A stretch of DNA of 64,000 bases from Sphaerolaimus hirsutus (Eukaryota; Nematoda; Chromadorea; Monhysterida; Sphaerolaimidae). Under the pieces are notes generated by a model. It was not told the DNA's origin, did not search any database, and saw only the letters and a list, made by a program, of their open reading frames with translations. The position numbers and the translations under genes were made by a program. Where the stretch lies: positions 26,237,785 to 26,301,784 of the forward strand of contig OZ038452.1 of assembly GCA_964036195.1 (NCBI GenBank), given 5' to 3'. Below are positions 1,848-30,723 of this stretch, piece by piece. The first letter of the stretch is position 1, and each line of letters starts with the position of its first letter.

Positions 1848-2409
1848 CATAGTTGTCCAAAGTACTTAACTTTTTTCAAAGTATACGTAAACGTAAAGTA
1901 TTTATTTTTAGACACCCCCTGAGTACAGAAAACGTAAAGAAATTTTTTTATACTTTTACTCATGAGTAAACATGAGTAAACGTACTTTTCACCTCAGAAA
2001 ACGTAAACGTGAGTACTTTTGAGAAATGTCGCCACAATTTTCACTCAAAATTACTCATTTTCAAATTTTCGTAACTTTTTGCCTATTTTATGCAATTTTT
2101 TACTATAAATATATTTGGTTCTGTACCCATTTTGATCTGTACCCATTTTGATTTGACCAGATCTGTACCCTGACTAGTTTCCCATATTTTTTGCATATTT
2201 TCGCCCTTTTCCCTTCTATGACTTCAAAAATCGATATAAAAGACGATCTGAAATACGTTTTCTGTACTCGGGTACTTTCAAAAAGTATACGTATAAGCGA
2301 GTACCGGAACTTTTTTCGGAGGAAACGTAATTTATTACGTACTTGTATTTACTATGTACTCGACTATACGTATTTATCGAGTAAAAGTAATTACCTTTTA
2401 ACAACTATG
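1848..2409. mobile_element. hAT-like MITE, AAAGTATACGTAA word family, perfect 8-bp TSD
   Basis: The element starts CATAGTTGTCCAAAGTAC and ends CTTTTAACAACTATG, and is flanked by an exact 8-bp duplication CTGCAGAG (1840-1847 and 2410-2417). The 8-bp duplication and the CA-G-rich ends fit the hAT superfamily. Inside, words such as AAAGTATACGTAAACG and CGAGTAAAAGTAATTAC repeat in opposite orientation in the two halves. No transposase frame. Related copies are at 7978, 36370, about 46400, 51102 and 56412. Confidence 0.85.
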
Positions 2410-2636
2410 CTGCAGAGTGTGCTTGCAGAGATTGTTATACTCCAGTTACTTTACACCCTACACGCATGGTTCCCGCTGGAAGCGTGCCAACGATTGTTTT
2501 ACGCATGAAATTTTCATAAAAAGTTTAAAAAAATTATCGTTGTCATAACGCTAAACGTTAACTTAGTCACATCTATCAATTTTATCATCTTATATACAAA
2601 AATCGCATACTTTATCATCATTGGCATGCTTCCAAC

Positions 2637-3179
2637 TGTTATGACCGCGAATTTGCGGTCATAAATATTTTAATTTAAGTTTGTTGATTTTTTAAGATGC
2701 CAAGGCCAACGGGGTTCAAACCGGCGCTTTATTCAGCGAAAACGGTTCACAGAACATAAGTTGGGGGTGAAATAATGTAGGTAGATATTGAGGAAAAATA
2801 ACGAGTCAAAATACGAAATCATTGACTGCCAGCCGATTCAAAATATCGGCTGGACACAGTAAAATATCGGGGGGCACTTACTCAACCCATATAGAAAAAC
2901 GGCAGCGACAGAATGTCTACTAGGCGCAAGAGTACATAGTGAATACGCGCCATACATAACAATGAAAAACGGAACACCTAAAACGGCACGCGTGAACGGT
3001 TCCGCCGAATATGAGTACATAATGCATACGCAGAATACATAGGCACATGAAAATGCAACAGCGCTGCGCGGGGGGGAATACCTAGGCAATGGCGCAACAC
3101 AAAACTTGTTGTAGTTTGAAAATTCAAATCTACCATAAGAAAATGAATGTAAATGTGCCTACAATACGATGGCATAACA
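2637..3179 (-). repeat. 3' LTR
   Basis: 543-bp second copy of the LTR, preceded in element sense by the purine run GGGAGGGG. Open frames inside it are the same in both LTRs and are not coding evidence. Confidence 0.92.
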
Positions 3180-3180
3180 G

Positions 3181-3188
3181 CCCCTCCC
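3181..3188 (-). other. Polypurine tract before the 3' LTR
   Basis: Element-sense GGGAGGGG lies one base before the 3' LTR, the expected place for the plus-strand primer in reverse transcription. It is short but fits. Confidence 0.6.
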
Positions 3189-3465
3189 ATGACAACAGTT
3201 ACACTACCTACAAAAGAAACACTAGTGGAACTGGAAGTCAGATAAAAGCTTACATAAAAGCTACAAAAATTTCAACCACAAAATCCAGTGGAATTTTGAA
3301 GTTACCCAACTGTAACAGTAAGCATTCAAATTAAAAGCATAATCCAGAATCACAAATGGATCAGATTGCAGTGTAATTATAAAAAAACAATTTGAAGTGT
3401 ACATTTCACAATGGACAGTGTTTCGAAATTGACAAAGCTACGCCCTAAAATCATGCTAGCTCTGC

Positions 3466-6063
3466 TTAGCCTGGATTCCACTGGGTGCTGGAGCTAAGCC
3501 TCGCCTTGTGCTTGCGGCGCATGCAGGGCTCTCCCCGAGGGTTGGTCACCAGTTGACCATCGGATTTTCCAGGGTTCACCAACATGAACTTGGCATGTGG
3601 TGAAACGCGTTTGGCAGAATTGTAAAAACATTTCGTGGCAGACTTTTTGCGTGGGGGCCTGCCGTATACCTTGCTGCCCTTGGCGCTTGGCAGTGTAGCG
3701 GGCTTCGACGAGTGCGATTTCCGAATGCCAGTAAATGGTGCCAATTCACAATGTGATAGTTTAGTGACTACTGATTGTGTTAGCATTTCCCCCTTAGTTG
3801 GAGACCGGCAGGCGCGAATTGATTCACCCATGGCCCTGGGCGTGAAATTGGCTTCGAGTCGCTGGAGCTCAGAAATAGCTGTGCGATTCATTTTTAGAGT
3901 GCCATAGAGTGCCTCGTGGCCAAATAAAAGCGGGCTCAATGTGCGCGGGAAGTGCGGTTTTCGTTTAACCACAGCCCAGATGTCTGCCGATTGCTGTTGT
4001 CCACCGGGTGTGGTATGCAGCAAATGCATTCTGTAGAGCGCCAGGTGATGCCCTGGAATCGGCTTGCCGGCAGTCCCCAAAGCTGAATCAGGGTATGACC
4101 GGTACTTTGCCTTCTCCATGCTGGCATTGCACTGTGCGCGTTTCCAAACATCCTCGAGCAGGTGCTCCTCGATGATGATCCCCTCCTCACAGCCACTATC
4201 GAGTGTGCCTGTGAGTGTGCAGCCCATGAAGTCCACCTTGGCCAGTGGGCGATCACAGTGGGCGTGTTGCACACTTGATGGGTTCATGGTGCAACCCATC
4301 TGCTTGTGAGCTGCGTAGCCGCTAGGGAACCACGTTTCAAAATCATCGGGCTCGGAATCGGATGGCGGATTAGAAACATTTTTAGTCAATTTAGTAGACG
4401 GATTGCCACTAGGTTCGGTGTCAGATTCAGGGGCACTATAGATGTGCTCATCCACTTTCAGATTGAGTTTGCCACACTCAATGCGCATATTTTTCTGAGC
4501 ATCGTGCTCAGTCTTGCCAGCCTTACGCAGGAAGTCTCGGGCTCGTTCCGCCTGATCCAGTCGATAGGCAGGAGAATCAGGATTCAAATAGCATTTTGCC
4601 GGCTCATGCGGCATGGGTACACAATGCATGAAATAGGTGCACCATGGACCCTGATGCGTCATTGGGTCAAATTTTGACTGCCTATCCCAGCCATCATTTC
4701 GACTGCCAGATCGACCCGAGGCATTTCTGGATGCAGCCACAGCTGGTGGGTCATTGGACCATGCAGCATTTCCACCGTTCGACGGATTCGGTGCACGATT
4801 AGCATTACGCTGCTCATTTTGTTCAGCCCGATAATGCAGATTTTCCTCACGCGTGATGTCGAGGCGTCCAACAGCATCAGCCAATTCGATCTGACCATCT
4901 TGCCATTTCTCACGCCACGGATACCAGAGCGACATTGGCAGCATTCCTCCAATCTCGAGGAACAATTTATCGCCAATCATTTTCTCGCGCTGTGAGTCGT
5001 CAATCTGCTCACTAATATAGTGGAATGTGCTGCACAATCTGCTGTACAGTGTGGCCACAGAATCAGTAGGTTTAGCTGAAATTCTATACCACTCAGCGAC
5101 GGAATGCGCCTTGCGGTCCACTCGGAAAACACGAGCCAATTTGTCGAGAACATAAAGCACGGTATTGCGCTTATCCAGGCGAATAGAAATGTAGTGCGCC
5201 TGTGCGCTTCCCTTCAAACATTGCTGGAAAACATTGGTCCAGAACAAATGTTGGTATGGCGGGGGAACGTTCAGAGCCTGTAGTGCCACATTGTGAAGCC
5301 AAAATTTAAAGGGCCCCGATGGCGCGCTCGAATCCCCGTTGAATGGTGTCTGCTTGCTAGCGACGGTGGCTACATGGCCGCCACTCATGCGATCACTGGA
5401 GGAAATTTGTGCCAGCGCATCCACGAGCGACGGAAAGCCATCGGCTGGGACCATGACATATTGGTCAATGTAGGCGGCAATTTGACCGATCAAACCGCCA
5501 GGCGATGATGACACAGCCTGCAACCTTGCTTCAGTTGAATCAAGTGGCTGGTTATTAGATGTAGTAGTGGGGGTCCTCAATGGACAATGATTGTTTGCGC
5601 CAGGTGCCGGTATCGAGTGCGAACCCGCGGGCGCATTTTGGACCGGTGCCGTATGTGCCGGCACCGCTTGTGAAGCCAATTGTTGGGCGATTGCAGCCGG
5701 GAGTTGTTGGATAGCTGACAAAAGATCGACCATTGTCGGTGCTGCAGTTGGCTGGGCAGCGGCGACACCTTGAGGCAGCGTGGGGTCGTCCCCAATGCCT
5801 CTGGGTGGTACTTGATCATCCAGGTCAAGCACCAATTCTAATACGGTGTTTGCATCTGTGAAATATAGATCCATGCACCGCCACACATGCCGAATCAATG
5901 GCCCAGTTCCGAGGCGGGGTGGATCACTAATCGTAGGCCACTCATCGTCATCAACTCGAAACTGCAAAAGCACACTTAGCAAGCGCAGCAATTTCTGCCG
6001 CTCAGTGCGCTCGACCCACGACTCGACGATCGGTTCCAGTTCCACTCGCGTATATTGCGACAT
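3466..6063 (-). CDS. Gag-protease polyprotein of the LTR element
   Basis: 865-residue ORF filling most of the element. Residues ~80-220 are Gln/Pro/Ala-rich and look disordered. Residues ~255-370 contain a retrotransposon Gag capsid-like helical region (FKFWLHNVAL...; later VAEWYRISAKPTDSVATLYSRL). Around 470-500 lies a Cys/His cluster spaced C-x5-C-x4-H-x4-C, a loose version of the CCHC zinc knuckle. Around 610-640 the segment VDFMGCTLTGTLDSGCEEG matches the retropepsin pattern, with DSG as the aspartyl protease active-site triad. The rest is basic with no recognised domain and there are no RT motifs. The start is the first ATG after the leader. An uninterrupted frame with identical LTRs suggests a functional protein. 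Confidence 0.85.
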   Translation of the reverse strand: MSQYTRVELEPIVESWVERTERQKLLRLLSVLLQFRVDDDEWPTISDPPRLGTGPLIRHVWRCMDLYFTDANTVLELVLDLDDQVPPRGIGDDPTLPQGVAAAQPTAAPTMVDLLSAIQQLPAAIAQQLASQAVPAHTAPVQNAPAGSHSIPAPGANNHCPLRTPTTTSNNQPLDSTEARLQAVSSSPGGLIGQIAAYIDQYVMVPADGFPSLVDALAQISSSDRMSGGHVATVASKQTPFNGDSSAPSGPFKFWLHNVALQALNVPPPYQHLFWTNVFQQCLKGSAQAHYISIRLDKRNTVLYVLDKLARVFRVDRKAHSVAEWYRISAKPTDSVATLYSRLCSTFHYISEQIDDSQREKMIGDKLFLEIGGMLPMSLWYPWREKWQDGQIELADAVGRLDITREENLHYRAEQNEQRNANRAPNPSNGGNAAWSNDPPAVAASRNASGRSGSRNDGWDRQSKFDPMTHQGPWCTYFMHCVPMPHEPAKCYLNPDSPAYRLDQAERARDFLRKAGKTEHDAQKNMRIECGKLNLKVDEHIYSAPESDTEPSGNPSTKLTKNVSNPPSDSEPDDFETWFPSGYAAHKQMGCTMNPSSVQHAHCDRPLAKVDFMGCTLTGTLDSGCEEGIIIEEHLLEDVWKRAQCNASMEKAKYRSYPDSALGTAGKPIPGHHLALYRMHLLHTTPGGQQQSADIWAVVKRKPHFPRTLSPLLFGHEALYGTLKMNRTAISELQRLEANFTPRAMGESIRACRSPTKGEMLTQSVVTKLSHCELAPFTGIRKSHSSKPATLPSAKGSKVYGRPPRKKSATKCFYNSAKRVSPHAKFMLVNPGKSDGQLVTNPRGEPCMRRKHKARLSSSTQWNPG

Positions 6064-17090: not shown

Positions 17091-18199
17091 GTTTTCACAC
17101 GAAATTTCGAAAACACATAAATGAGCTTTGAATGTTTTTTTTCATTTGAACAACGATACCACGGGTGGCTACATGAGTCATGGATATAAACAACATAACA
17201 AAGAAAAAGAGCTATTGTGACATACGACTGGTACAATGTGAGGGTAGGTAGGTAGGTGGACTGGTGAACTGATAAACGATCAAAAGTTACAGTAGAATAA
17301 CCAATTATAGCGTATTGCAAAGTAATAATAACCGTAATTAACGATACCAAGGCCTTGGTTTTAATAAAAAATTTTCAATAACAAGCCGGAATAACAGTAC
17401 AAGAGTCTATTGTGAAATTGACAAGTGAGGTAAGATTAGTAAGATTCAATAATAGAGATAATTTGATAACCGGTTTTATGATTGAGACATTTATAAATCT
17501 CCCACAGGTTTTCTTAATGTTTGCATCAGATAGAGACATATGTTCTGTTCAACTGTGCAGTTTTGCGGGAGTGATCAGATATCGTTCCTTGTGCTAACTG
17601 TGGTCACATTTTTTATGCTATTTTTATTTTTGTTAGCACAATACCGGCATATTTGAAGACATGAGGTACTATCTTTTCCGAGTACTTGCATGCGTTTCAC
17701 TCCCTCAATATGCAGTTAATATATTCACATACCTCAATCTAACATATTAGTGTGGATATTCACTGATACATTAACTGTGTGTCAATTTGTCACTCTGGGT
17801 CACAAGAATTTTATCAAGGGCAGACAAATGTGTGGAGAATATTGAGCAAGATTTGGAGCAGCCAAACCCTTGGATTGTCCTACACCGATCTATGGGTGCT
17901 GCATTCACTACGTTCCTGCAGCACATATTTCCACAGCAGTCTGTAGTCAATGCTTTAAATAGCAAACTTCTGAGAGTATACCGATCGGGAAGGTTACCGA
18001 TCGGGATTCCCTCCAAACTTCTCCATAGAGTAAGAGTTGTATGCGCACAGGCATACACACGTGTTTGAGTTTCCCACAATGAGTCATTTTTAATCTCTGT
18101 CAACTGTAGTTGACGCCCACCTCATTGTAGAAAACTCAAATGCGTTCAAAACTGATTTGTGAGTTTTCGAAATTATGTGTGAAAACTTGTGTGCGCAGG
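17077..18199. repeat. Inverted GCGCACACTAGTTTTCACA ends enclosing 1.1 kb
   Basis: Left end near 17081-17110 (GCGCACACTAGTTTTCACAC, then GAAATTTCG) mirrors 18166-18199 (CGAAATTATGTGTGAAAACT, then TGTGTGCGC). The right end lies inside the direct repeat at 17839-18361 and so also occurs at about 30533-30560. Nothing inside is recognised except the open frame noted for that direct repeat. Confidence 0.4.
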
Positions 18200-18361
18200 C
18201 ACATTGCAGCATAACGAAAAATAGCGCTGAAGTGTAAAATCGACCTTGGCTGTAAAATTGATATACTCCACCAGTGACTTAACACTTAACAGCTTGCACC
18301 TGTGGTACACGCTGGAACACTGCCAAAGGTATGGCAGTCCAAGACTTACCTAGTTGCACTT
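17839..18361. repeat. Left ~0.5-kb direct repeat
   Basis: Matches 30252-30723 from ATATTGAGCAAGATTTGGAG to TACCTAGTTGCACTT, almost base for base. It has 51 extra bp (a 43-bp segment plus a second copy of CAAACTTC, near 17967-18020), so the extra piece sits between 8-bp direct repeats. An open frame starts before the left boundary and crosses it (17787-18068, ILSRADKCVENIEQDLEQPN...). The 51 bp keep that frame. I do not recognise the peptide. Confidence 0.85.
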
Positions 18362-19546
18362 TTTTTTCAATTCAAAGTATCAAGTATGGATGCGATAAGA
18401 AAAGTAACACAATTATATCACCTCTCTATCATGCAGCTGCCGCTTGGCGGTTTGCCACTCCATGCTGCGATGCGTAGAAGTGCCAAGAAGACACCCCCAT
18501 TTACACCGCCCATAAACCTGTGTGATGATACATTTATTTTACAGGTGGCATAAGATCAATGGTATGCATGACCTTTTTTTAAATGCCGAATCTAATGCGA
18601 CTATTCCAAACATATCGTATATTTACGTTGAAGTGGTCGTAAATTACGTGCATGAGTAGCCGTAATGCATATACGATATCAGCCCGAAATGCCTATCCCA
18701 TCTACGTTTTACATAGTGGTCAGAAAACATTGTCCAGTCGTCATGTCTCGGCTTGACAATACTTTCAATCACTATATAAAATTAGAGTGGCTTGATCATT
18801 GCCACGTTACCCAACCTAAGTATACCCGTACCTACCCATATCTAGAAACAATCGATATTTATTTTACCGCATCAAATTTACGCTGTCTAGATGACACACG
18901 AATATTTGAGTGCCGTTCTATGGCAGTTGGAGAGGCCCGGTATGAACCCAACCCATATAAAGCCATCCATAAATACTGTATTTAGATCCATATTCGATTT
19001 TCAGGCGATTCGCATTCGCAGCAGATGTCAACGGTGCGATAGTATCAATCAAGATTTCCGTTGTCCCGCTATCGTTTCACCACTGGGAAGCGCCTGAAAA
19101 CCAAATTGAGGTTTGATTGTACATAGTTGTACAACTGAAAGGAAATCCCCAGTCAATATTTTCAATTTGCCGTAACCCCGCAGGGACATCTGTCTACGGT
19201 CGTTATGCCTATAGAGTTTCCTTGCGAGGCCTTGGCTACACCTATGATCAAGCTAATAGAGACACATTTGAGTGAATTGCATTGCCTCTCTGTCGGCATT
19301 AAGCCTCTGTTGCGTTAGCATTTACAAATATTTATCCCAACGATGGCAAGTGTGAGATAGGAATTTTAATGGCAGGGCTCTTGAGACAGTAAGTAGCTCA
19401 AATACACAAGGGAACAGTCTGACTGGGGAACTTCCAGCCTCTAACCATCTCCCTAAATCTGTATAAGTACTACAATTTTGCTTTCAGCCTCAGCCATATT
19501 AATATCCCTACGCTCACACATGCATGCGTATTTTACTTAGCTGTTG
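18362..19546. other. Region between left repeat and RT stop codon
   Basis: About 1.2 kb downstream of the RT ORF, presumably its 3' untranslated part. Overlapping plus-strand frames at 18665-19097 have no recognisable domain. I see no A-rich LINE tail directly after the stop codon. Confidence 0.4.
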
Positions 19547-22500
19547 CTAATCTGGTGCCTTACAACCCTTTAAACCGATATAGACTAACTGGTTAAGCAT
19601 TGATTTGTGTATGCTACATATGTTGGCATGTAGCCAATCCTTTGAATTAATACAATCTGACGGACATTTGCGACCTCGTATCTTTTGTCGGATCTCATCT
19701 AGAAATGGACAGATGTACATTATGTGATGTGTAGAGGTTGGAACAGATATATGCATATTTGAACATTTAGTACAAATTTTCTTCCCTGACTTTGTGTATA
19801 GATTTAAAGAGTTATGTCGCGCCGCAAACCAAGACAGATGATTATAGTGAAGGTTTTTAGGATGCAGCTGTGATCCCATATCCCCTCTGTTTGTCTCTAT
19901 TTTTTGAAGTTTTAAATCGCCTAGTAGCATTTTTGTACGATTATGGCGAGTTGCCAATTTAACATTTGTTTTGGTAAGAGTACTTGCAACTTTCTCATTC
20001 AGCTGTATGTCCTTACAGCAAGAACTGAATAAATTGGACGAAAATTGATCCGCAGCTAACCTGTTTGAGTGATTATAGGCCAAATCAATTTTGTATGCCT
20101 TAGATAGTAATCTAGTAGCTGGTAATGATTTCGCATAATTATTATAAGTAATCACCATTTGTCTGTATCTGTCTGATGGCAATTCACCTCCCACATCCAT
20201 CAGAAAGCTTGCTGTGCTTGTATGATTTGGCAGAAAAACACACTTTTTCAAAGTTTTTGCATAAATTTTGTCTATCTTTTGTACAATTTTTCTACCTACT
20301 CCCGTAACTTCTAATCCATACATTGAGGCAGCCTCAATGTACGATTTGAAGGCAATTTTAGCATATAAAAGTGGTTTACTAGATCCTCTGCTAGAAAGCA
20401 TTGCAAGTGAACTATGTTTCATGAATTTTTTGTAACAATTATCTCCATGTAATTTAAATGGTTCTTTATCCGAAGTAATAGTTATACCCAAGTATCTTAT
20501 CTCATCAGTTTCGTTAACTGTACCTAGATTTTTGAAATTATCGTACCCTATTTTCCATTTGGTACCATTTGATTTTTGTCCCCATCTTAGTACAAAAGTT
20601 TTTTGTGTGTTAATCGATACATTCCAAGCCCACCCCCATTCAGTAAAGGTAAGCATTAAATGCTGTAATTCGTATTCTGTGTTGGCCATTAAAACCACAT
20701 CATCAGCAAAAAAGAGACCAGGTATTTTTTCTTCATTTCTACCCAACTTAGCCCCCTTACCTGTGCTTCTCAATGTTTCAGCCAAATCATACATGTACAG
20801 TGCGTATAGTGTGGGGCTAAGAGCACATCCCTGTGCCACCCCAATAGGATAATCTAACTCATCACTAGTGTACTCACCATAAGTCATATTCACCTTTATG
20901 TTGTTATAGGCATTTTTTATAGCATTGACTAAAGTAGGTGGTATCCCAATATTTTCTAACTTTATCCACAATTTTTCCCTATTAACTCTATCAAATGCTT
21001 TAACTGCATCCACAAAGCAAGTATAGAAGGCGTTTCCATTACATTTAGCGTAAATGTTACATGATTTCAGTATCTGAACATTATCACAAGTTCTCCTATT
21101 TGGTCTGAATCCCCCTTGTAGTTCTGTTAAAATATTGTTGTCTTCTGTAAACTGTATAAGTCTATTATTTAACATTATCATATACAGTTTTTTCACATTG
21201 CATGAAATACCAAGTGTTCTGTAGTTTTTCATGTCATTTTTGGGGCCCTTTTTGTGTAGTAAAACCAGCTTGCAAATTTTTGCTTCATGAGGTATCTCCT
21301 CTCCTCTCAGCCATGTATTAAAAATATTCAAAAGAGCATGTTTAAAGTTTGGTGTCATTTTTTTCAGTATTTCGTGACAAATATTCGATGTACCTGCTGA
21401 TTTATTAATCTGCAGTCTTTTGATTGCACTCTCAAGTTCACATATGCTGAAATCAATGCCTAGATAGTGCACACAATCCAACATTGAGTTATGATTGCCG
21501 TCATCAATAATACTTGGCAAATCTTTTGAACCAGGATTTGGATGCATTATGTGGGACCATACCTCTTTCATCTCTGTATTCATACTAATCCTATCATCCA
21601 GCAAAATACCATCAGCATTTTGCAATGTACATAAATTAGATTTTTCCTTCCAGTTCTTATTTATCTGTCTATATACATTTTTTATTTCCATCCCAGGTTG
21701 TTGCTGAAATTTTTCTATTTCTCTATCCCTTTTTTTGTATAGTTCTGCCTTTTTTGCAGATGACAATTGATTTTTAAATTCTTTTAGTTGTTCTGTCAAT
21801 GTATATAGACAGTTGGCTTTCATTTCAGAGTGTATACCCTTCTGTTTTAGTTTACCTATTTTTTTCCTTACTTTTGCCAAGTTGCGATGAATCTTTTTAA
21901 TGTGCAGAGGCACAGTTTTAGCTTTTTTAACCTTCCCCCTATTTTCTATGGCTTTTTTTGCCGCATTCTGCAAATCAGATACAGCCTCGGCATAGGTAGT
22001 AGGGGTATTGTTATCAATATAATTCTGAAAGATTTCCCATTCTTCCCCCCTGGGTTTCAAAGGCTCTGGTCCTTGAGCCCTTTTCACTATACTTACATTT
22101 TCTATTCGTAATATTACGGCATGGTGGTCAGAAAGCAAAGGACATGTATCCCCATTTTTATCTATTTTGCCAGATATGAAGTTATATTCAGAGTCCGAGA
22201 AACATAAGTCTATAGCTGAGTTCGCATTTTTTCTTTCATATGTCCAAAGTTCTTTAAATGTACGGTTAACTAGGTATGGTCCATACAATCCCATCCAATC
22301 ACGTATCAATTTGCCGTTCACATTTATTTCGGCTTGATTTCCTGGTAAACCTAAAATATCATCCCCAATATGTCCATTAAAATCACCTACAATCAAACAT
22401 ATTTCCTCCCTAGCTCTAGATCTGGCAAGTATTTCACCTAATTCATCTAATATACCCGCATTTTTGTTTTGAATATTTATAGAGTTTTTACTTTTAGAGT

Positions 22501-23815
22501 TATTTTCAAGATAGCAGGTTAATAGGTTAATTTTTTGATCTCTAGATCGAATAGTTACCCCCATGATATTGTCTGTATCACTCAATGTAATTTCTTTAAA
22601 TTGTAAATCATTTTTTAAAAATATTGAAATACCACCTGCTTCAGTACCTGTTTTATACTTATGTATACCTATGTAGTTAGGTATCTCAAATGTGTCCGCA
22701 TGACATGTAAAATGCGTTTCAACAAAGCATAAAAGTGACGCAGCACTGTTTTCAATAGCTGCAAGCACTTCAGTACCTTTTTTCCTCAGATATCTTGCAT
22801 TTTGGTAAAGTATAACCAATGGCAATGTTCCAACTGTATAACTGTCAAGTGTGTCTTCGGCATATTCATTTTCACCTGCTGCCAAATCAAATAATCCAAA
22901 AAATACAACCACAAAAATTTGCCAAAATGATAGCCGAAATGTTGAACGGTAGTTTCTAGAAAATTGAACAAAAACGGACATGTATGTCCCCGAGTGGGAT
23001 ATAAAACGCCAAGAAACAATGGCCCATGGCCCAGCACCTGAGATAAATGCACATAAGTGAGATCCCAAAAAAAATGCCAAAGAAAACCCTCTTTTCAAAC
23101 TCGAAACAACACCACAGAACACACCACTTTCACAAGTAACCCTATTGCCTTCACCACAGCTACAAACGTTAAAAAAAACTCGTATACGTGTAAAAATATC
23201 AAAACATTTCCACATCTGTTCAACAGTAACTGTACCCGCCCTAAAAAACAAATTTACGGCAGTCTTTGAAAATGGTGTGTTATCGGTTGAGTTGTCTGTC
23301 CGCTCACTGTGCCAGTAGGTTTCGCCGCTGCTGCCTGTGAGCATGTAAAGTATTTTGTGCACAGATGTTAAATGAATGTTTAATTTATCGACATTTTCAA
23401 CCTCAACTGACATTTCTATCAATCGCCGCCTACTCAGCTCACAAACGATTTTGTCGCATGTTGGCGAGCTGTGCAGCCCGTCCCAGGTCATGCACGCCAA
23501 AAATGCATCGATCTCATTATCGAAACCTAGTAAAGTGTACTCCCGGCGAATGAAACCCATGATTGTCAAAACATCCACATTTTCAAAGTGACAGGCAATC
23601 AAGTCACAAATAGCGGATTCTAGCTTACTCCAAAAACCTATCAATTCAGTTATCAACTCATTCGACCAAGTGTGCGACATATCATAGGGCATAGTCGGTC
23701 CAATTAATGAAATCAACAAACGTCCGCAAGGCAAAAATTTCACACAACCACTCGAGAAAAAAAACTCGCAGACATTCATATAAACCCTCCAAAAAGTAGG
23801 CGTCAACACAATAGT
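19547..23815 (-). CDS. Endonuclease-reverse transcriptase of a non-LTR-type retroelement
   Basis: ORF of about 1,420 codons; numbering is from the GTG at 23809. Residues 1-320 show no known domain and include a hydrophobic stretch near 300. An APE-type endonuclease follows at ~330-565: YQNARYLRKK, VETHF (catalytic Glu), IVGDFNGHIGDD, LSDHHAVIL. The reverse transcriptase spans ~800-1080: LVLLHKKG, FVDAVKAFDRVN, GVAQGCALSPTLY and the catalytic FADDVVLMA. The C-terminus (~1340-1365) has CTKCSNMH...HHIMYIC, a CCHC-type cluster usual in such elements. All key motifs are intact, so it could be active. No ATG opens the frame; AAATTTCAG stands just before codon ACT at 23815, so it probably starts by splicing from the upstream gene. 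Clade not assigned. Confidence 0.9.
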   Translation of the reverse strand, partial: TIVLTPTFWRVYMNVCEFFFSSGCVKFLPCGRLLISLIGPTMPYDMSHTWSNELITELIGFWSKLESAICDLIACHFENVDVLTIMGFIRREYTLLGFDNEIDAFLACMTWDGLHSSPTCDKIVCELSRRRLIEMSVEVENVDKLNIHLTSVHKILYMLTGSSGETYWHSERTDNSTDNTPFSKTAVNLFFRAGTVTVEQMWKCFDIFTRIRVFFNVCSCGEGNRVTCESGVFCGVVSSLKRGFSLAFFLGSHLCAFISGAGPWAIVSWRFISHSGTYMSVFVQFSRNYRSTFRLSFWQIFVVVFFGLFDLAAGENEYAEDTLDSYTVGTLPLVILYQNARYLRKKGTEVLAAIENSAASLLCFVETHFTCHADTFEIPNYIGIHKYKTGTEAGGISIFLKNDLQFKEITLSDTDNIMGVTIRSRDQKINLLTCYLENNSKSKNSINIQNKNAGILDELGEILARSRAREEICLIVGDFNGHIGDDILGLPGNQAEINVNGKLIRDWMGLYGPYLVNRTFKELWTYERKNANSAIDLCFSDSEYNFISGKIDKNGDTCPLLSDHHAVILRIENVSIVKRAQGPEPLKPRGEEWEIFQNYIDNNTPTTYAEAVSDLQNAAKKAIENRGKVKKAKTVPLHIKKIHRNLAKVRKKIGKLKQKGIHSEMKANCLYTLTEQLKEFKNQLSSAKKAELYKKRDREIEKFQQQPGMEIKNVYRQINKNWKEKSNLCTLQNADGILLDDRISMNTEMKEVWSHIMHPNPGSKDLPSIIDDGNHNSMLDCVHYLGIDFSICELESAIKRLQINKSAGTSNICHEILKKMTPNFKHALLNIFNTWLRGEEIPHEAKICKLVLLHKKGPKNDMKNYRTLGISCNVKKLYMIMLNNRLIQFTEDNNILTELQGGFRPNRRTCDNVQILKSCNIYAKCNGNAFYTCFVDAVKAFDRVNREKLWIKLENIGIPPTLVNAIKNAYNNIKVNMTYGEYTSDELDYPIGVAQGCALSPTLYALYMYDLAETLRSTGKGAKLGRNEEKIPGLFFADDVVLMANTEYELQHLMLTFTEWGWAWNVSINTQKTFVLRWGQKSNGTKWKIGYDNFKNLGTVNETDEIRYLGITITSDKEPFKLHGDNCYKKFMKHSSLAMLSSRGSSKPLLYAKIAFKSYIEAASMYGLEVTGVGRKIVQKIDKIYAKTLKKCVFLPNHTSTASFLMDVGGELPSDRYRQMVITYNNYAKSLPATRLLSKAYKIDLAYNHSNRLAADQFSSNLFSSCCKDIQLNEKVASTLTKTNVKLATRHNRTKMLLGDLKLQKIETNRGDMGSQLHPKNLHYNHLSWFAARHNSLNLYTKSGKKICTKCSNMHISVPTSTHHIMYICPFLDEIRQKIRGRKCPSDCINSKDWLHANICSIHKSMLNQLVYIGLKGCKAPD

Positions 23816-26800
23816 CTGAAATTTTCAATGCCTCATAAAATTCGGCATCCGTACTGTCTAAAACGGCTCTAATTATCACAGCGTCATAGCAAACATCTAA
23901 TTTTATCTCACTCAGGCACGAAAAAATGGTGGAAAGCCGTTTTCCCGAAAAAAGACCCTTGGTACCATGTAACACCACTGCCATATTGTGCGCCTTAAAA
24001 TCGGAGACAAAAATGTTCGAGAGCGAACAACTAGTAGAATCACCACTCAAAAACACTGTATAAAAATCCCTGTAAGGATCGACACATTTTTCGCCAAAAA
24101 ATGGAATAACGGAACTCAAAACCGGTTTGTAGTTAACCTTTCTATAGTCACAATGTGGACCGAAATCAACCGCATTGTGTAGATTGCGCAAAACATCCGC
24201 AACTTTAACAGGGATCGCGCCAAAATAGGGGTCGACAACCGTACTATTTTCCGGGTATGATGCCTTAGATTTTACAAAATTTACAAAAATTTTTGAGCAT
24301 TTTGTTTTCACAGAATTTGTCAAATTGCCAAAGCTGAATTTCTTGATTGCATTCGATTTTCCGGGTTTGGCTTGGTTGGACGCTCGAATCTGTTTGAATG
24401 GGGTACCCTTGTAGGGGGGTCTTAAAAGTGTCATGTAAAAATGTACCTGTGCGTATCCGCCGTATGCACCGGTCTGCTTTTGGCCCGATCCGCTAGCTGC
24501 CCCCCCCGATTGGCCATGAGCTTCATCGATCTGACGCTGCAGTTGCTCCTGTTGTTTTAGCAGCGTGTCCAAAGTGTTTCCCGTTGCCGTCGGAATGTTG
24601 GTGTTTCTGTAAAAGCACATGGATTTGTCCATAGATTTGGATATCCGTTTGCTGATAGAGTGTAACCATTAGCATTTTCTTTAGATATTGTTATATGTAC
24701 AACTCTTTTAAGTAAAGATATATTTACGAAATTGGTATTATGCATCTTTTTTAAAAAAATAAGCTCTTTTAAATATTCACTTTTTTAAAAAAAAAGCTAT
24801 TATAGGTAGTTGTCGGTCAACCTTTGCATTTAGGTCTTTTTTTAAAAATTTATTTAAAAAAAAAAAAAAAATTTACCTTTTTTAAAAATAGATATTATAA
24901 GTACTTGTATATTTGGATAGATGTTTGGCCCATAGTTTGGGAGGGAAGATTATTATAAAAAAAGATTCACTTTCCAAGAACAATGACGTAAGGTTCGACC
25001 ATGACTTACCAATATGCAGTATTTCGTCATCGTCTTCATAAATGTCGTCATGATCGGCAAAATCATTCCAATTTGCATCTCGCAACGGTTCTTGATCGTT
25101 TTGCAGCAAGTTTTGCGTTTGCTGGTGAGCAGAGCGGGGACCCGGAATCGGTTGCTGGTTGCCACGCCCTGTACGTATATGTATTGGTTTTATACAGAAT
25201 TTCTTACAGTGAAAAGTAGTGTTGTTACAAAAAATTTTAGCTTTGTTGAAAGCGTGTTGATGTGTGCTACAGTTGATATTTTTAAGTCCGATTGACATGA
25301 AATTTATGAGATTTGTTGTCTTTACAATTTTCCTCAAAATCGTAATCTTACCGCGATTGAAATTTTGCCCTCTGATATTTCCGCGCCCGCGCCCACGACC
25401 GAAGCGCCCGCCACGGCCAAATTGGGATCCCCGGCTGCGCGCAGAGGCGTTGGATGCCTGGCTCGCTTGCGTTGAATCGACTTGTTGATTGTCTTGGGCC
25501 TCCATGGCCGCCATGCCGCTCCGCAACGCCGCTTTGCGTTTTTGCTGAAATGAGTTTTTTTTAAAAACTGCCAGATAAGCAACATCCACATTTATTGTAG
25601 GTCTATTTGTGTTTGTTACAGTATTTTGTTGAAAAAATATTTTTTTTTAAAAGATACAGTTTTTAAAAAACTTTTTTTTTTTAAATGTTTTATTCTTCGG
25701 CATATCGTGTTACCATGCCCTCTCACAGATGTTATTCTTATTGTTAATATTTCTTTACGGTTGTAAGAATGTGTTATGCACTCTCGTTTTGAAAACGCCA
25801 GTTTGTTTTTAGAATATCTAATATTTTTAAAAAAAGTCATAGTATGTTGTAGTAGGAGGGAGTGTGAAGTCGTAATGGAAACAATTGATATTTTTTGTAT
25901 ATTTAGAATTATGATGGGTTTTTTTAGAAAATATTCAGATATATAATATTTATCAAACATAAACAACGAATTTCCCCATACCTCTGTTAGGTATTCTGGT
26001 GGGGGTATTAGGCATTCTTGTACTTTCGCGTATACCCCCTTCCTGTCCAGGGCATCGAAATGCTGCTCGTCGTCAAATTTTTTGAAAACTCCCAGGTCAT
26101 TGACGCGCACAGTAGCTCCGTTGTAAGTGCGCCGGGAGAAAGCCATTTCCTCTGTGATGACGTCTCTGATCTCCATTAGGGCTTCACTGTACAGGCTCAT
26201 GTACAGCGCGCGGAAAAATTTGCCAGCCGAGACGGGTAGCGCGCACTGTGTGGTTGAAGTAATGATATTTATATGCATGGCTAGTTTTGAAAAGCACATT
26301 ACAAATAGAACATGTTTGATTTGAATGTATTTTTGCATCCTCAATTGTTTGTAAATACTTTTGATGTCATAAAAATGAGATATTCTCACTCTTTCGGTGG
26401 TCGACAAACTGTGAGTTGTAAAAAGTATCCCCAAGCCAACATCAAAGGTACCCTTCGTGTGTCCACACACGAGCGCGCCTCGCCAGCCGCTGGCGGGGGT
26501 ATCTCCGGCGCACCGAATCGTTCGTTCTGTGTGCACCCAATCCGATCCAATTTTGACTTTATCTGAGCACCATAGCATTTGCCTGAAAGCGAGGGTTCGA
26601 ATATTAATTGAATAAATTGGTAAAGAATGTATACTACGTGAGTTAGATGTTATCCTAGTATTATTTATCGATAATGCGAGTTTTGTGTTTTGCCAAACTT
26701 TTTCTCGTGTGCGACGAATATTGTTAATAACATATAAGCGGGGTATTTTTAAAACTTTCCGAAGATATCTATTTAATTTTATTATACTAGCAGGTTTTAC

Positions 26801-29701
26801 CCTTGTACATTGTTTTTCTACCTTATATTTAACCGACCTAAACCCCAGATTGTTTTCAGCGGCATTTTTAACAATCATCCTGAGTGTGATGTACGCGGGG
26901 GTGTTTTTCGCCGCCTCAACGCTGTCGTACAATTTTCCGTCTCTGTCGTTCTCGCGTCCAGTCCCCATGGCAAACCACGTGTTTGACGTGTCCACACTTT
27001 GCGATTGCAGGTAGCGGAAAATCATACCCCAGACCCGCTTGCAAGCGCGCTGGTATTCATGAAAGGCAGAGTCGAATGCCCCGCCAGTGAATTTTGCGTA
27101 GAGTTGGTGCAGGTTTTGAGCCAGACTTTGGATATTCTGCGTGGCCGTCGCCCTCGCCTCAGCCTGAGTATGTGGTGTAGATGCAATATAGAATACTTTC
27201 GATCTAGCAGTGTTCAAGTGCCAGATAAAAATCTCAGATTTTGAATATTGTTGGAAGTGTGCCAAAAGCTGGGATATTTTCCCATTTTGTAAATAGAAAC
27301 CCAAGTAGTAGTAATGTGGCAGAACCCATCTAACATAAATCATCGCATGCAGAATGCAATCAAAGCGATGCCCATCAAATTTCACTTTCCACGGGTAGTA
27401 CCCGCCGAACGGGTCGGATGGGTCGTCTAGCACGATGACGATGTCCGGTCCAGTGGCGTTGCCCTGCACGACCCCCGCCGCCGCTGGCGTGTATGGAGTG
27501 GTTTGAGCCTGTATTATAAATTTTGCTGTAATTATGTGAGTAGCGTCCCATTTTAGAATATTTGTTGGAATTGTGCCAGGTTTTTTATCGACATGTAATT
27601 TTAGTAATGTAATTAGTCTAAGTACTTGTTCTAACTCTAAAGTTACCCTCCAGCACGCAATTTTTGGGCTTATGAGAGTATAACTTTCGGTGGCATGTAT
27701 AACTAGTTTCAACAGATGTTCCTCAGTTCCGTCATATACTAGTAATCCAAATTTGTACAAACCCACTTTTACCTCGGGTGGTGTTTCCACGTTTTTCGCC
27801 CGTTTTGGTTTGGCCAATGTTGTATCGATTGCTATGTCCAATCGACGCTTTGGCGGTACCGCAACCGGTGTCGTGCATGTGGCCAGCTCGCGTAGTTGTT
27901 GTATTTCGTCGCGACATTTCTCCGCCAGCGACAATGCCTTTAAATTTTGTGTATTTGTAAATGTCATACCAGAGCTCAGCACGTATAATTTTGATGGCAT
28001 TTTAGTGTTTATGCATCGGTATTTTGATATAGTACACTTTGGAATGAAAATTTCATGAAAGAATTTGGCTCGATAAGCCTGTGTAAACCCCAAATTGATC
28101 AAATTTTTACTCACGGTCTTTACGTTGTCAAAAGCGTCGCTTTTTTCAACCCTATTCAATCGGCGCTCGATTGATTCCAGCGTTTTTTTGTTCAAGTCCG
28201 CTGCTCTGTATGCATAGCCCGCCGCGCGTCCGCATTGAATCTCGAGCTGCCAAGAAAATAAATGTTCATAAGTATTATAACAGTTATGTATATAAATGAT
28301 CTTAGATCCAAATTTCCTTAGTTTTATTTTATATCGCATAAATTTATAAAGATATTTTTGCATCATGCCAAAGTTGTTTGGGAAAGTGTTGGGGATACCC
28401 ATGAAAGGGTACTGTAACATAACCTCACTAACCAATTTTATTTGTTGGGACATCATGAGCCGTTCCTTTTCCAGATGGCGCACCACCGCAACTAAGTGGC
28501 CAATTTCCATCGCATTCGGGGTTTGTGTTGGATTGTCATTCAATTTGGCCCAAAATTTTTCGCATAATTCGTACGGGTGCAGTGTGGTTGACGGGAGCGT
28601 AATGTCACATCCCAATTTGCTCGTAATAGAGTCCCAGTCGAGGAAGTCGGCCCCTATTTTCGATTCTGCGTTATAGATCGATAAATTACTAAGTGAAGGA
28701 GTATTTTGCAAGACATATTGATACGTTATACAGAGGCAACCCATGTATTTATATTTTAACACTATTTTATATTTGTGCTCGAAATAGTAGACCGATCTCC
28801 TGATAAAGGAAAAAAAAGTATCGATTGACTCACTCAGTTGATTGGCCATGGCTGAGACCATCTGCTTTGGCTCTGTGTCCGGTTTCAAAGTTACACCGCC
28901 ATCGACCGTCACTACCTTCGATCCTTGATACGCACCCTTTTCATTTTCTGGCTCGAAGCCAATACCGAAGTTATCCACTGATAACGGGTCGGCCGCATCT
29001 GTCTGGGTGGCTTGCCCATCAGTCACGACCTTTTCCACCGCTTCTCTGTTCTCCGCCGACTCGTCAACCGTCTGAATGGCCATTTGGCTAGTTGCCAACA
29101 CTGTCGCTGTGCTGTCTGAAATGTGGAAGTGTGCATAGTCGTTGTTTATTGCATTGATACCTAAATGTTTTTTTCCGTGGTATAGAAGGTATACACTAGT
29201 TGGGTCTAGAAGTGAGTATATTCCCGCAGTAAGTAGTTTACGCTGGTCACCCCCATTTAGGTTTTTGTTTGTATATGTATGCTCGGGTCTGGCATTCTTC
29301 CAGATAGTACATATGCTATAATAGCTTGTAGGTATGGACAACTCTGAACCCAAAAACCTAAAGTATCCCCGTATACCGATTTCGGGTTCCGAGCCTTGTG
29401 TACTATTGAGTTGCAAAGTGGTCTGGCCAGGTGCCAACGACTTCCTCTTCGAAGGTACCAACGCTCTCTTCGTTTTGGCCGATCTGGTGAGCGCGCCAAG
29501 TGTGTCCAGGTTATCGCCCGTGGTGTTGCTGGCATTCGTATCGCTTTGAGCACCGCGCATTTTACGCCCGTTCGGCCCCGCTTTCTGAATTTTGATGCAT
29601 AGAAACAATGATAGATGTTGACAGTTGTGAGACATAGGTATATATATAACATCATGTAATATGATAACAGAAATATTTACCGGAGTTCTCATTGTCGCCA
29701 T
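23682..29701 (-). CDS. Intron-rich upstream gene (ORF1-like, RGG box, coiled coil)
   Basis: Proposed exons: 29701-29681 (ATG, MATMRTP), 29584-29377, 29115-28834, 28665-28433, 28246-28115, 27937-27773, 27508-27335, 27163-26844, 26582-26441, 26245-25982, 25544-25352, 25168-25010, 24606-24447 and 24389 to a stop at 23682. Donors include GTGAGT (twice), GTAAGA and GTAAGT; acceptors are mostly CAG. Exon 2 is Ser/Thr/Lys-rich, exons 4-5 look helical, exon 11 is an RGG-type RNA-binding segment (GRGGRFGRGRGRG), exon 12 ends acidic, exon 13 has a Gln-rich coiled coil (LLKQQEQLQRQIDEAH). Together these resemble an ORF1 nucleic-acid-binding protein, but I recognise no named family. Exons 12 and 13 do not join in phase, so a small exon or change is missing there. 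The last exon overlaps the RT frame. Confidence 0.6.
24390..29680 (-). other. Eleven stop-free, 3n-length introns
   Basis: Between the proposed exons, introns of 96, 261, 168, 186, 177, 264, 171, 261, 195, 183 and 57 nt (numbers 1-9, 11 and 13) are all multiples of three and have no stop in the exon frame: 2,019 nt or 673 codons. Frame 30142-25616 is therefore open over 1,508 codons across nine introns. Only intron 10 (437 nt) and intron 12 (403 nt) break the rule. The introns are clearly AT-richer than the exons. Splice sites were chosen to fit the phase, so phase agreement is not independent evidence. The alternative is that these segments are simply coding. Confidence 0.6.
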
Positions 29702-30189
29702 TTTCACGATCACAAACTTTGCAATTATGTGTTTTTCAAAATTTGCTAATTGTCTAATTTGTTGATTATCGATTTTTATTAATTGGATACAATAGTCCGT
29801 ATTTAATTCAGAGTGTACTCTAACTAAATGATGTTGCTGTGGCACGACCACATAATATCGGTTCTCCTCGGATCGAGCAGTAAAGCACTCGTTTTTCGTA
29901 ATAAGAGGAGTACGCGTCTGTTGCCACAGCAACTGCGGACCTCTATTGATATTTCTCGTATTGTGAGATTTGACCCAAAATATTTTCATTTGCACACGGC
30001 TAGCAGTAGCATTTTGGCACTCGTCCAAGCATACTGTTTTTGGCGCGTGAGCAGTCGATACAGTCTTATATCGCTGGGGAAAGCTGTATGACAGTTGCCC
30101 TTGAGGCCGGAGGTTCAGGAGGTACACCGCTAAACTCACCACAAGCAGCGAGAGCGACCGAATCGTTATGGATCACCGATATGGAAGGA

Positions 30190-30251
30190 AAAATTTTTTT
30201 TCACTTTTTTCCTTTTTTCCCTTTCACTTTTTTCCTTTTTTCCCTTTTTTC
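30190..30251 (-). other. Polypurine tract (minus strand) beside the right repeat
   Basis: Plus strand is TTTTTTCCCTTTCACTTTTT-like for about 60 bp, so the minus strand is nearly pure purine. It lies inside the unit, next to the upstream repeat. A retroviral purine primer would lie by the downstream repeat, where only a short GAAAAAAAAG occurs, so I do not call it one. Confidence 0.5.
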
Positions 30252-30723
30252 ATATTGAGCAAGATTTGGAGCAGCCAAACCCTTGGATTGTCCTACACCG
30301 ATCTATGGGTGCTGCATTCACTACGTTCCTGCAGCACATATTTCCACAGCAGTCTGTAGTCAATGCTTTAAATAGCAAACTTCTCCATAGAGTAAGAGTT
30401 GTATGCGCACAGGCATACACACGTGTTTGAGTTTCCCACAATGAGTCATTTTTAATCTCTGTCAACTGTAGTTGACGCCCACCTCATTGTAGAAAACTCA
30501 AATGCGTTCAAAACTGATTTGTGAGTTTTTGAAATTATGTGTGAAAACTTGTGTGCGCAGGCACATTGCAGCATAACGAAAAATAGCGCTGAAGTGTAAA
30601 ATCGACCTTGGCTGTAAAATTGATATACTCCACCAGTGACTTAACACTTAACAGCTTGCACCTGTGGTACACGCTGGAACACTGCCAAAGGTATGGCAGT
30701 CCAAGACTTACCTAGTTGCACTT
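30252..30723. repeat. Right ~0.5-kb direct repeat
   Basis: Second copy, without the 51-bp insert. It lies directly after a long pyrimidine tract (30190-30250). In the direction of the retroelement genes it is upstream, where a 5' LTR or promoter would be. Beyond it the sequence continues AGGGACTTTGGTTTGGAGTC, a short hairpin. Confidence 0.85.

Follow-up and report, generated by a model that had tools for sequence, protein, structure and literature searches.

Background

Retrotransposons are expected to lose their introns, since their RNA is spliced before being copied. Moreover, the reverse transcriptase (RT) of a LINE tends to copy the RNA from which it was translated (cis preference). In retroviruses the unspliced genomic RNA is also an mRNA and is translated across regions which the spliced RNAs lose as introns, and in the Drosophila P element splicing serves as an on/off switch. 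A 3' microsatellite end is typical of CR1/L2-like LINEs.

An SGNH-type esterase lies ahead of the endonuclease and RT in CR1/L2-type LINEs such as ZfL2-1 of zebrafish (PMC3905857), and stop-free introns which are translatable when retained have been described as exitrons, about half of the known ones having a length that is a multiple of three (PMC4484396). Penelope-like elements are retroelements able to retain or spread introns, for which a route through an antisense template has been proposed (PMC3846280). In addition, the RNA of the L1 LINE can carry functional splice sites, and the resulting spliced copies (SpIREs) have been called evolutionary dead ends (PMC5860796).

The element described here lies in a window of 64,000 nucleotides, the whole stretch of DNA that was analysed, from the nematode Sphaerolaimus hirsutus (assembly GCA_964036195.1, contig OZ038452.1, positions 26,237,785 to 26,301,784). 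It resembles the esterase-bearing CR1/L2 LINEs in having an esterase before the endonuclease and RT, and in its 3' microsatellite end. It differs from the ZfL2-1 type in that its most open copy forms one giant ORF, over about 12 kb of element, with a large N-terminal gene carrying 13 apparent introns and an antisense gene in the 3' part. As in exitrons, the introns have, with few exceptions, no in-frame stop, but here this applies to nearly all the introns of a mobile element, which are AT-rich and open family-wide, and their peptides are near neutral; the exon-like, constrained coding sequence by which exitrons are recognised was not found. Penelope-like elements carry a GIY-YIG endonuclease, whereas the one found here is of the Exo_endo_phos kind, and GIY-YIG is absent from the Pfam matches of the window copy and of a further copy, L010. 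Unlike in the L1 SpIREs, the splice sites are conserved and the introns are kept readable. The unspliced RNA is proposed to be an mRNA too, as in retroviruses; in contrast to these, the RT is of the non-LTR type, the thirteen introns are short and their sequence is little constrained. To our knowledge no known system combines an esterase-bearing LINE, spliceosomal introns and stop-free, readable introns. Among open-licence PMC papers, no title or abstract in the top-ranked literature matches refers to stop-free introns in a LINE, and neither the excerpts of two transposon reviews (PMC6431247, PMC5718144) nor the passages of the Penelope-like paper (PMC3846280) mention such introns.

Results and discussion

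General organisation of the element

Judging from its sequence, the intron-rich gene on the minus strand is the 5' part of a LINE-type (non-LTR) retrotransposon of about 12 kb. The whole copy occupies 18362..30251 (minus strand), where both ends (5' near 30251 and 3' near 18362) are approximate and correspond to the limits of similarity among copies. Inverted arms at 17839-18361 and 30252-30723, about 90% identical to each other, abut the ends. The layout is common to the fetched copies: the intron-rich N-terminal gene is followed by an esterase-like domain, a variable linker, the endonuclease and the RT.

The RT domain (RVT_1, 20477..21244, minus strand) was recognised by Pfam with an E value of 9.5e-32 and was present in all 11 further copies for which downstream DNA was fetched. 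By sequence, its best PDB matches are the R2 and L1 ORF2 proteins, and its relatives in the protein database comprise 74 matches with 22-35% identity. The AP-type endonuclease (Exo_endo_phos, 22187..22795, minus strand) sits N-terminal of the RT; against a Pfam cut-off of 24.5 bits it scores 24.4 in the window copy, just below, and 26.7 in L010.

The esterase-like domain (23372..24386, minus strand, limits approximate) was located by tblastn and is frame-broken in the window copy. It has no Pfam match. The model of its 317-residue relative in L010 resembles SGNH/GDSL esterases, with a mean pLDDT of only 51. The single Foldseek match at E<=0.001 is an SGNH acetylesterase (4.9e-04), and six of the top seven matches are SGNH/GDSL-type enzymes, some of them judged by their titles. 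An SGNH esterase in ORF1, as in the CR1/L2 type, is therefore a predicted feature of the element at the level of the modelled fold. The linker between esterase and endonuclease (23372-22900, minus strand) is poorly conserved and, on visual inspection of the window copy and of L010, hydrophobic and possibly membrane-spanning.

At the 3' end (TTGA)n or (ATTGA)n was found in all five copies inspected, these coming from two near-identical groups, and repeats related to it end most other copies in the alignment. The common 5' end is where the alignable sequence of the copies starts. Within the two near-identical groups the identity over the element is 92-99% and the alignments end at the same places. 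The element ends of three copies share no exact string longer than 8 nt in inverted sense, and a search for target-site duplications in four copies returned only short or repeat-confounded matches.

The product of the N-terminal gene has no match in Pfam (long ORF and joined L010 protein) or in the PDB, and no homologue among 7,993 scored candidates from 5.8 billion proteins. When its conserved core was modelled with the intron peptides left in, the outcome was uninformative (mean pLDDT 31). To the eye one exon resembles a NADAR-like motif, to which Pfam gives no support. A phage origin was also considered and rejected: a tblastn of the endonuclease and RT region against phages was empty, and the assembly measures 348 Mb.

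Copies in the genome

A DNA search of the 348-Mb assembly gave 106 matches, which correspond to about a dozen further copies and ten stray single-exon matches. The copies match mostly exon by exon, with about 67-85% identity. A few matches cross one intron at 68-69% identity (for example in L011, L016 and L018), so that the intron bodies are mostly, and not wholly, unalignable. No intronless copy was recognised in this DNA-level search. A distant sister family, represented by L036, was also detected; its two strongest tblastn matches have 33 and 36% amino-acid identity and all matches fall within 24-42%.

The open frame of the window copy

In the window copy an open frame of 1,518 sense codons (25619..30172, minus strand; stop at 25618-25616) runs through the leader, the exons, introns I1 to I9 and most of I10. 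AT-rich segments alternate with GC-richer ones along it, and the other two frames of 30172-25619 have stops throughout. The borders of the introns were placed from the exon flanks conserved in other copies, those of I2, I6, I11 and I12 being accepted by hand. Nine introns within this frame, all on the minus strand, are stop-free and a multiple of three in length: I1 (29585..29680, 96 nt), I2 (29116..29376, 261 nt), I3 (28666..28833, 168 nt), I4 (28247..28432, 186 nt), I5 (27938..28114, 177 nt), I6 (27509..27772, 264 nt), I7 (27164..27334, 171 nt), I8 (26583..26837, 255 nt) and I9 (26246..26440, 195 nt). I11 (25169..25351, 183 nt, also a multiple of three, within the open frame 25649-24884) and a 57-nt segment, I14 (24390..24446, GTACAT..ACAG), are not part of the long ORF but of a different open frame on the minus strand. 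On the other hand, I10 (25545..25981, 437 nt) and I12 (24607..25009, 403 nt) are not multiples of three and contain stops in this copy.

An earlier note, made from the sequence of the window alone, had described eleven of thirteen inferred introns as stop-free and frame-keeping, and this count is borne out, as is the loss of frame in the remaining two, I10 and I12. Its lengths also stand, with the exception of a second intron of 261 nt, I8, which measures 255 nt when placed by the conserved splice sites.

The reading frame of the window copy is interrupted in I10, I12 and the esterase region; homopolymer runs occur at or close to these breaks, so that an assembly error is possible there. I10 (25981-25545, minus strand) and I12 (25009-24607, minus strand) contain long runs of A and T, and in I10 of L010 a run-rich unit is present twice. 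The leader (30172-29701, minus strand) precedes the first exon (MATMRTP) and is open in frame in the window copy too; in eight of nine copies it is open to near or beyond the 5' end of the element (L015 is the exception and L018 was left out); the positions of its in-frame ATGs vary among copies.

Introns are nearly always open across the family

An intron instance was counted if both exon flanks were recognised (a score of 20 or more out of 30 for one flank, no matter which, and of 16 or more for the other) and if its length was 31-1499 nt, by which I3 of L013 (2,114 nt) was excluded; I2 of L016 was dropped by hand, I11 was not used in the family counts, and I6 was scored by the script in the window copy only and by hand in L010 and L036. 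For I1-I9 this gave 91 instances, of which 86 are multiples of three, the others being I5 of L013, I7 of L012, I7 and I9 of L017 and I8 of L020. From their composition about 445 in-frame stops would be expected in the 5,713 codons of these 86 instances, and only one is present (I4 of L012). By comparison, their two other frames contain 1,010 stops in 11,344 codons (Fisher P about 8e-184), and this refutes chance or an artefact of composition, an explanation whose probability is negligible; the earlier claim that the lack of stops exceeds chance is thereby upheld. In ten representative copies, with near-identical ones removed and I6 left out, 64 of 68 instances are multiples of three and one stop is found in 4,150 codons, where 368 were expected. 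The finding that would have counted against the earlier note, homologous introns full of stops, was looked for and the opposite was obtained.

I10, rich in A/T runs, is a multiple of three in 6 of 12 copies, and in these six it has three stops in 883 codons (about 81 expected). Among 11 I13-bearing copies looked at, an in-frame stop within this intron is found only in L012, the stop of L017 lying just before the donor. The lengths of the introns vary among copies in steps of three and their mean GC content is 0.32.

The clearest case is L010, which is open from close to the 5' end of the copy for 2,933 codons; the adjoining L024 adds 750, so that 3,683 codons can be read through I1-I13 up to the end of the RT. 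Its I1-I13, 3,150 nt when summed, have no stop in 1,044 codons and 205 in the other frames. Similarly, L019 and L023 are open over 2,969 and 533 codons. In the sister family, all 1,499 codons fetched for L036 can be read without a stop, and its eight hand-placed introns, annotated as I4-I11 (I8 being 243 nt by its CAG acceptor), are stop-free; in L035, another member, the 4,501 bases include frames of 1,009 and 406 codons.

The antisense gene as an internal control

The element also carries, on the opposite strand of its 3' part, a three-exon gene (18743..19318, plus strand; exons 18743-18939, 19005-19110 and 19184-19318, introns of 65 and 73 nt), which was found in 12 of the 12 copies examined. 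Its product has 139-152 residues in 11 of these and 46 in L029, where the frame fails; one member tested (the protein has about 145 residues) has no Pfam match. The 24 antisense introns, from 12 copies some of which are near-identical, are 56-90 nt long with ordinary splice sites. Only five are multiples of three, and 19 have at least one in-frame stop, with 34 stops in 522 codons. As these introns are ordinary, openness is not a general property of the introns of this host or element. On the sense RNA they lie beyond the stop of the RT, and the constraint thus belongs to those introns that the sense RNA must cross to reach the RT.

Sequence signals of probable splicing

The open segments could be ordinary, fast-evolving coding inserts of a plain giant ORF that is never spliced, as would suit a frame of 3,683 codons in which nearly every segment is open and a multiple of three. 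Nevertheless the borders argue for splicing. In I1-I5 and I7-I9, where neither GT nor AG was set as a condition of the count, all 90 donors have GT and 87 of 88 acceptors have AG, in agreement with the usable ends noticed earlier; at the same borders the acceptor reads CAG in 84 of 88 (C at -3), and the donor has G at +5 in 77 of 90 and T at +6 in 76 of 90. All three codon phases (0, 1 and 2) occur among the introns and share one nucleotide consensus, GTNAGT at the donor and YNCAG at the acceptor, which therefore does not reflect a conserved amino acid. This consensus is moreover kept while the bodies of the segments are mostly unalignable. The aligned proteins of eight copies consist of near-invariant exon blocks with mostly unalignable intron peptides between them, and the borders are sharp.

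In addition, I13 is missing, apparently exactly at the splice sites, in the window copy and in L009, as expected if spliced RNA is occasionally copied. Mapped onto the RT tree, the two absences require two changes, and no bootstrap tree out of 200 can do with one; the well-supported forks by themselves demand only one. With such borders in all three phases, the introns look like real spliceosomal ones, and an unspliced giant ORF is an improbable explanation. The suggestion that the segments are coding insertions which only resemble introns is disfavoured on the same grounds.

The 57-nt segment fits the unspliced ORF better. Its length is identical in 11 of 13 copies (L022 would be a twelfth, as judged by eye, and L013 has a deletion there), and its donors are non-consensus, for example GTACAT, GTAAAT and GTATAT. 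Given this constancy and the poor donor, it may simply be coding DNA. Listed earlier among the introns, it is indeed open and a multiple of three; as an intron it is doubtful, and it is not counted here as a proven one.

Selection on the intron peptides

The most closely related copies, L016 and L019, have a dN of 0.0437 and a dS of 0.043 in their introns, a ratio of 1.02 over 504 codons, whereas the 199 exon codons compared have no nonsynonymous and five synonymous changes (dN/dS 0). The dN/dS of introns and exons is 0.58 and 0.03 for L012/L014, 0.57 and 0.05 for L013/L014, and 3.34 (on 14 changes) and 0.17 for L012/L013; for L012/L015 the introns give 1.58 on few changes. Constraint on the intron peptides is thus slight or absent, even though stops and frame shifts seldom occur in the introns; the ratios of 0.57-0.58 would still allow a degree of peptide constraint. 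In the introns of L019 about 5% of random changes would create a stop and none of 64 did, where 3.3 were expected (P 0.03). This test within the closest pair is weak by itself, and the deep comparison carries the weight.

These values bear on whether intron retention gives a second functional protein, in which the intron peptides matter. Such exitron-like diversity would share the published signature of stop-free introns, about half of them multiples of three (PMC4484396), and it could draw on the ratios of 0.58 and 0.57 in two pairs. Against it stand the ratio of 1.02 in the closest pair and those of 1.58 and 3.34, on few changes, in two more, together with peptides that are unalignable among subfamilies, lengths that change in steps of three and a mean GC of 0.32. 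We regard this explanation as very improbable. Optional splicing, one of the possibilities raised in the earlier note, fits the data, but the second functional protein that was attached to it is unsupported, as the intron peptides are under little or no constraint.

Proposed mechanism and its meaning

The best supported of those possibilities is that unspliced genomic RNA must stay translatable, the RT being downstream, and in frame in L010, and related copies keeping their introns open. On the sequence comparisons above, we consider it likely (with a probability of roughly 0.7) that ribosomes read unspliced genomic RNA across the introns and so produce the RT, and that splicing takes place as well. 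A gene with 13 introns would be fused in frame to the esterase-like domain, the endonuclease and the RT, and its sense RNA would have two fates. Once spliced, it would give a compact protein; left unspliced, it would serve both as template for new copies and as mRNA for the RT. Since the copies examined retain their introns, copying must use intron-bearing RNA, and with cis preference the copied RNA is likely to be a translated one, which would require open introns. Only elements with translatable introns would then propagate with their introns, selection within these removing stops and frame shifts and otherwise having little effect, and splicing of the sense RNA would be frequent enough to keep the splice sites.

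However, in L010 the spliced frame also reaches the RT, and cis preference alone should therefore yield intronless copies. The spliced RNA may be limited to some tissue, or may be missing a signal for copying that lies in the introns. Alternatively, splicing could act as an on/off switch, one tissue retaining the introns to make a transposition-competent polyprotein and another removing them to give a different or repressing protein. This would explain why spliced copies are unseen although the spliced frame reaches the RT, and it agrees with most introns being multiples of three; thirteen introns are nevertheless more than a switch needs, and we consider it rather unlikely.

If translation of the unspliced RNA is the correct reading, the reason for having introns may be regulation, or protection from the surveillance of intronless transcripts. 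In human cells HUSH silences long intronless transcripts as foreign, and introns protect from it even without splicing (PMC8770142). By analogy, the introns might be a disguise as a host gene, whose price would be that they have to be translatable so that unspliced RNA makes the RT in cis. This idea is tentative and in our judgement rather unlikely; under it the strategy would be old, the sister family, at about a third amino-acid identity, having the same open introns.

A dozen introns kept over deep divergence, open and little constrained, point to selection on the translatability of the unspliced RNA. The element can offer one natural system in which to test cis preference, intron retention and the surveillance of intronless transcripts. 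Moreover, stop-free introns with lengths in multiples of three and near-neutral peptides are a genomic signature that can be searched for elsewhere.

Other features of the window

Two other long frames were noticed on the minus strand of the window. The one at 61089-63914 is a GC-rich single-exon ORF of 941 codons with an AAA_12 helicase domain, and has only two weak relatives among the scored protein-database candidates. The other, at 3466-6063, has 865 codons and is gag-like by eye, with no Pfam match over the cut-off. The mitochondrial COX1 of the same assembly, at 1905-3239 of a contig (C762) of 14,754 bases, indicates that the host is probably an invertebrate bilaterian: TGA must be read as Trp, and AGA occurs at positions where Ser is usual.
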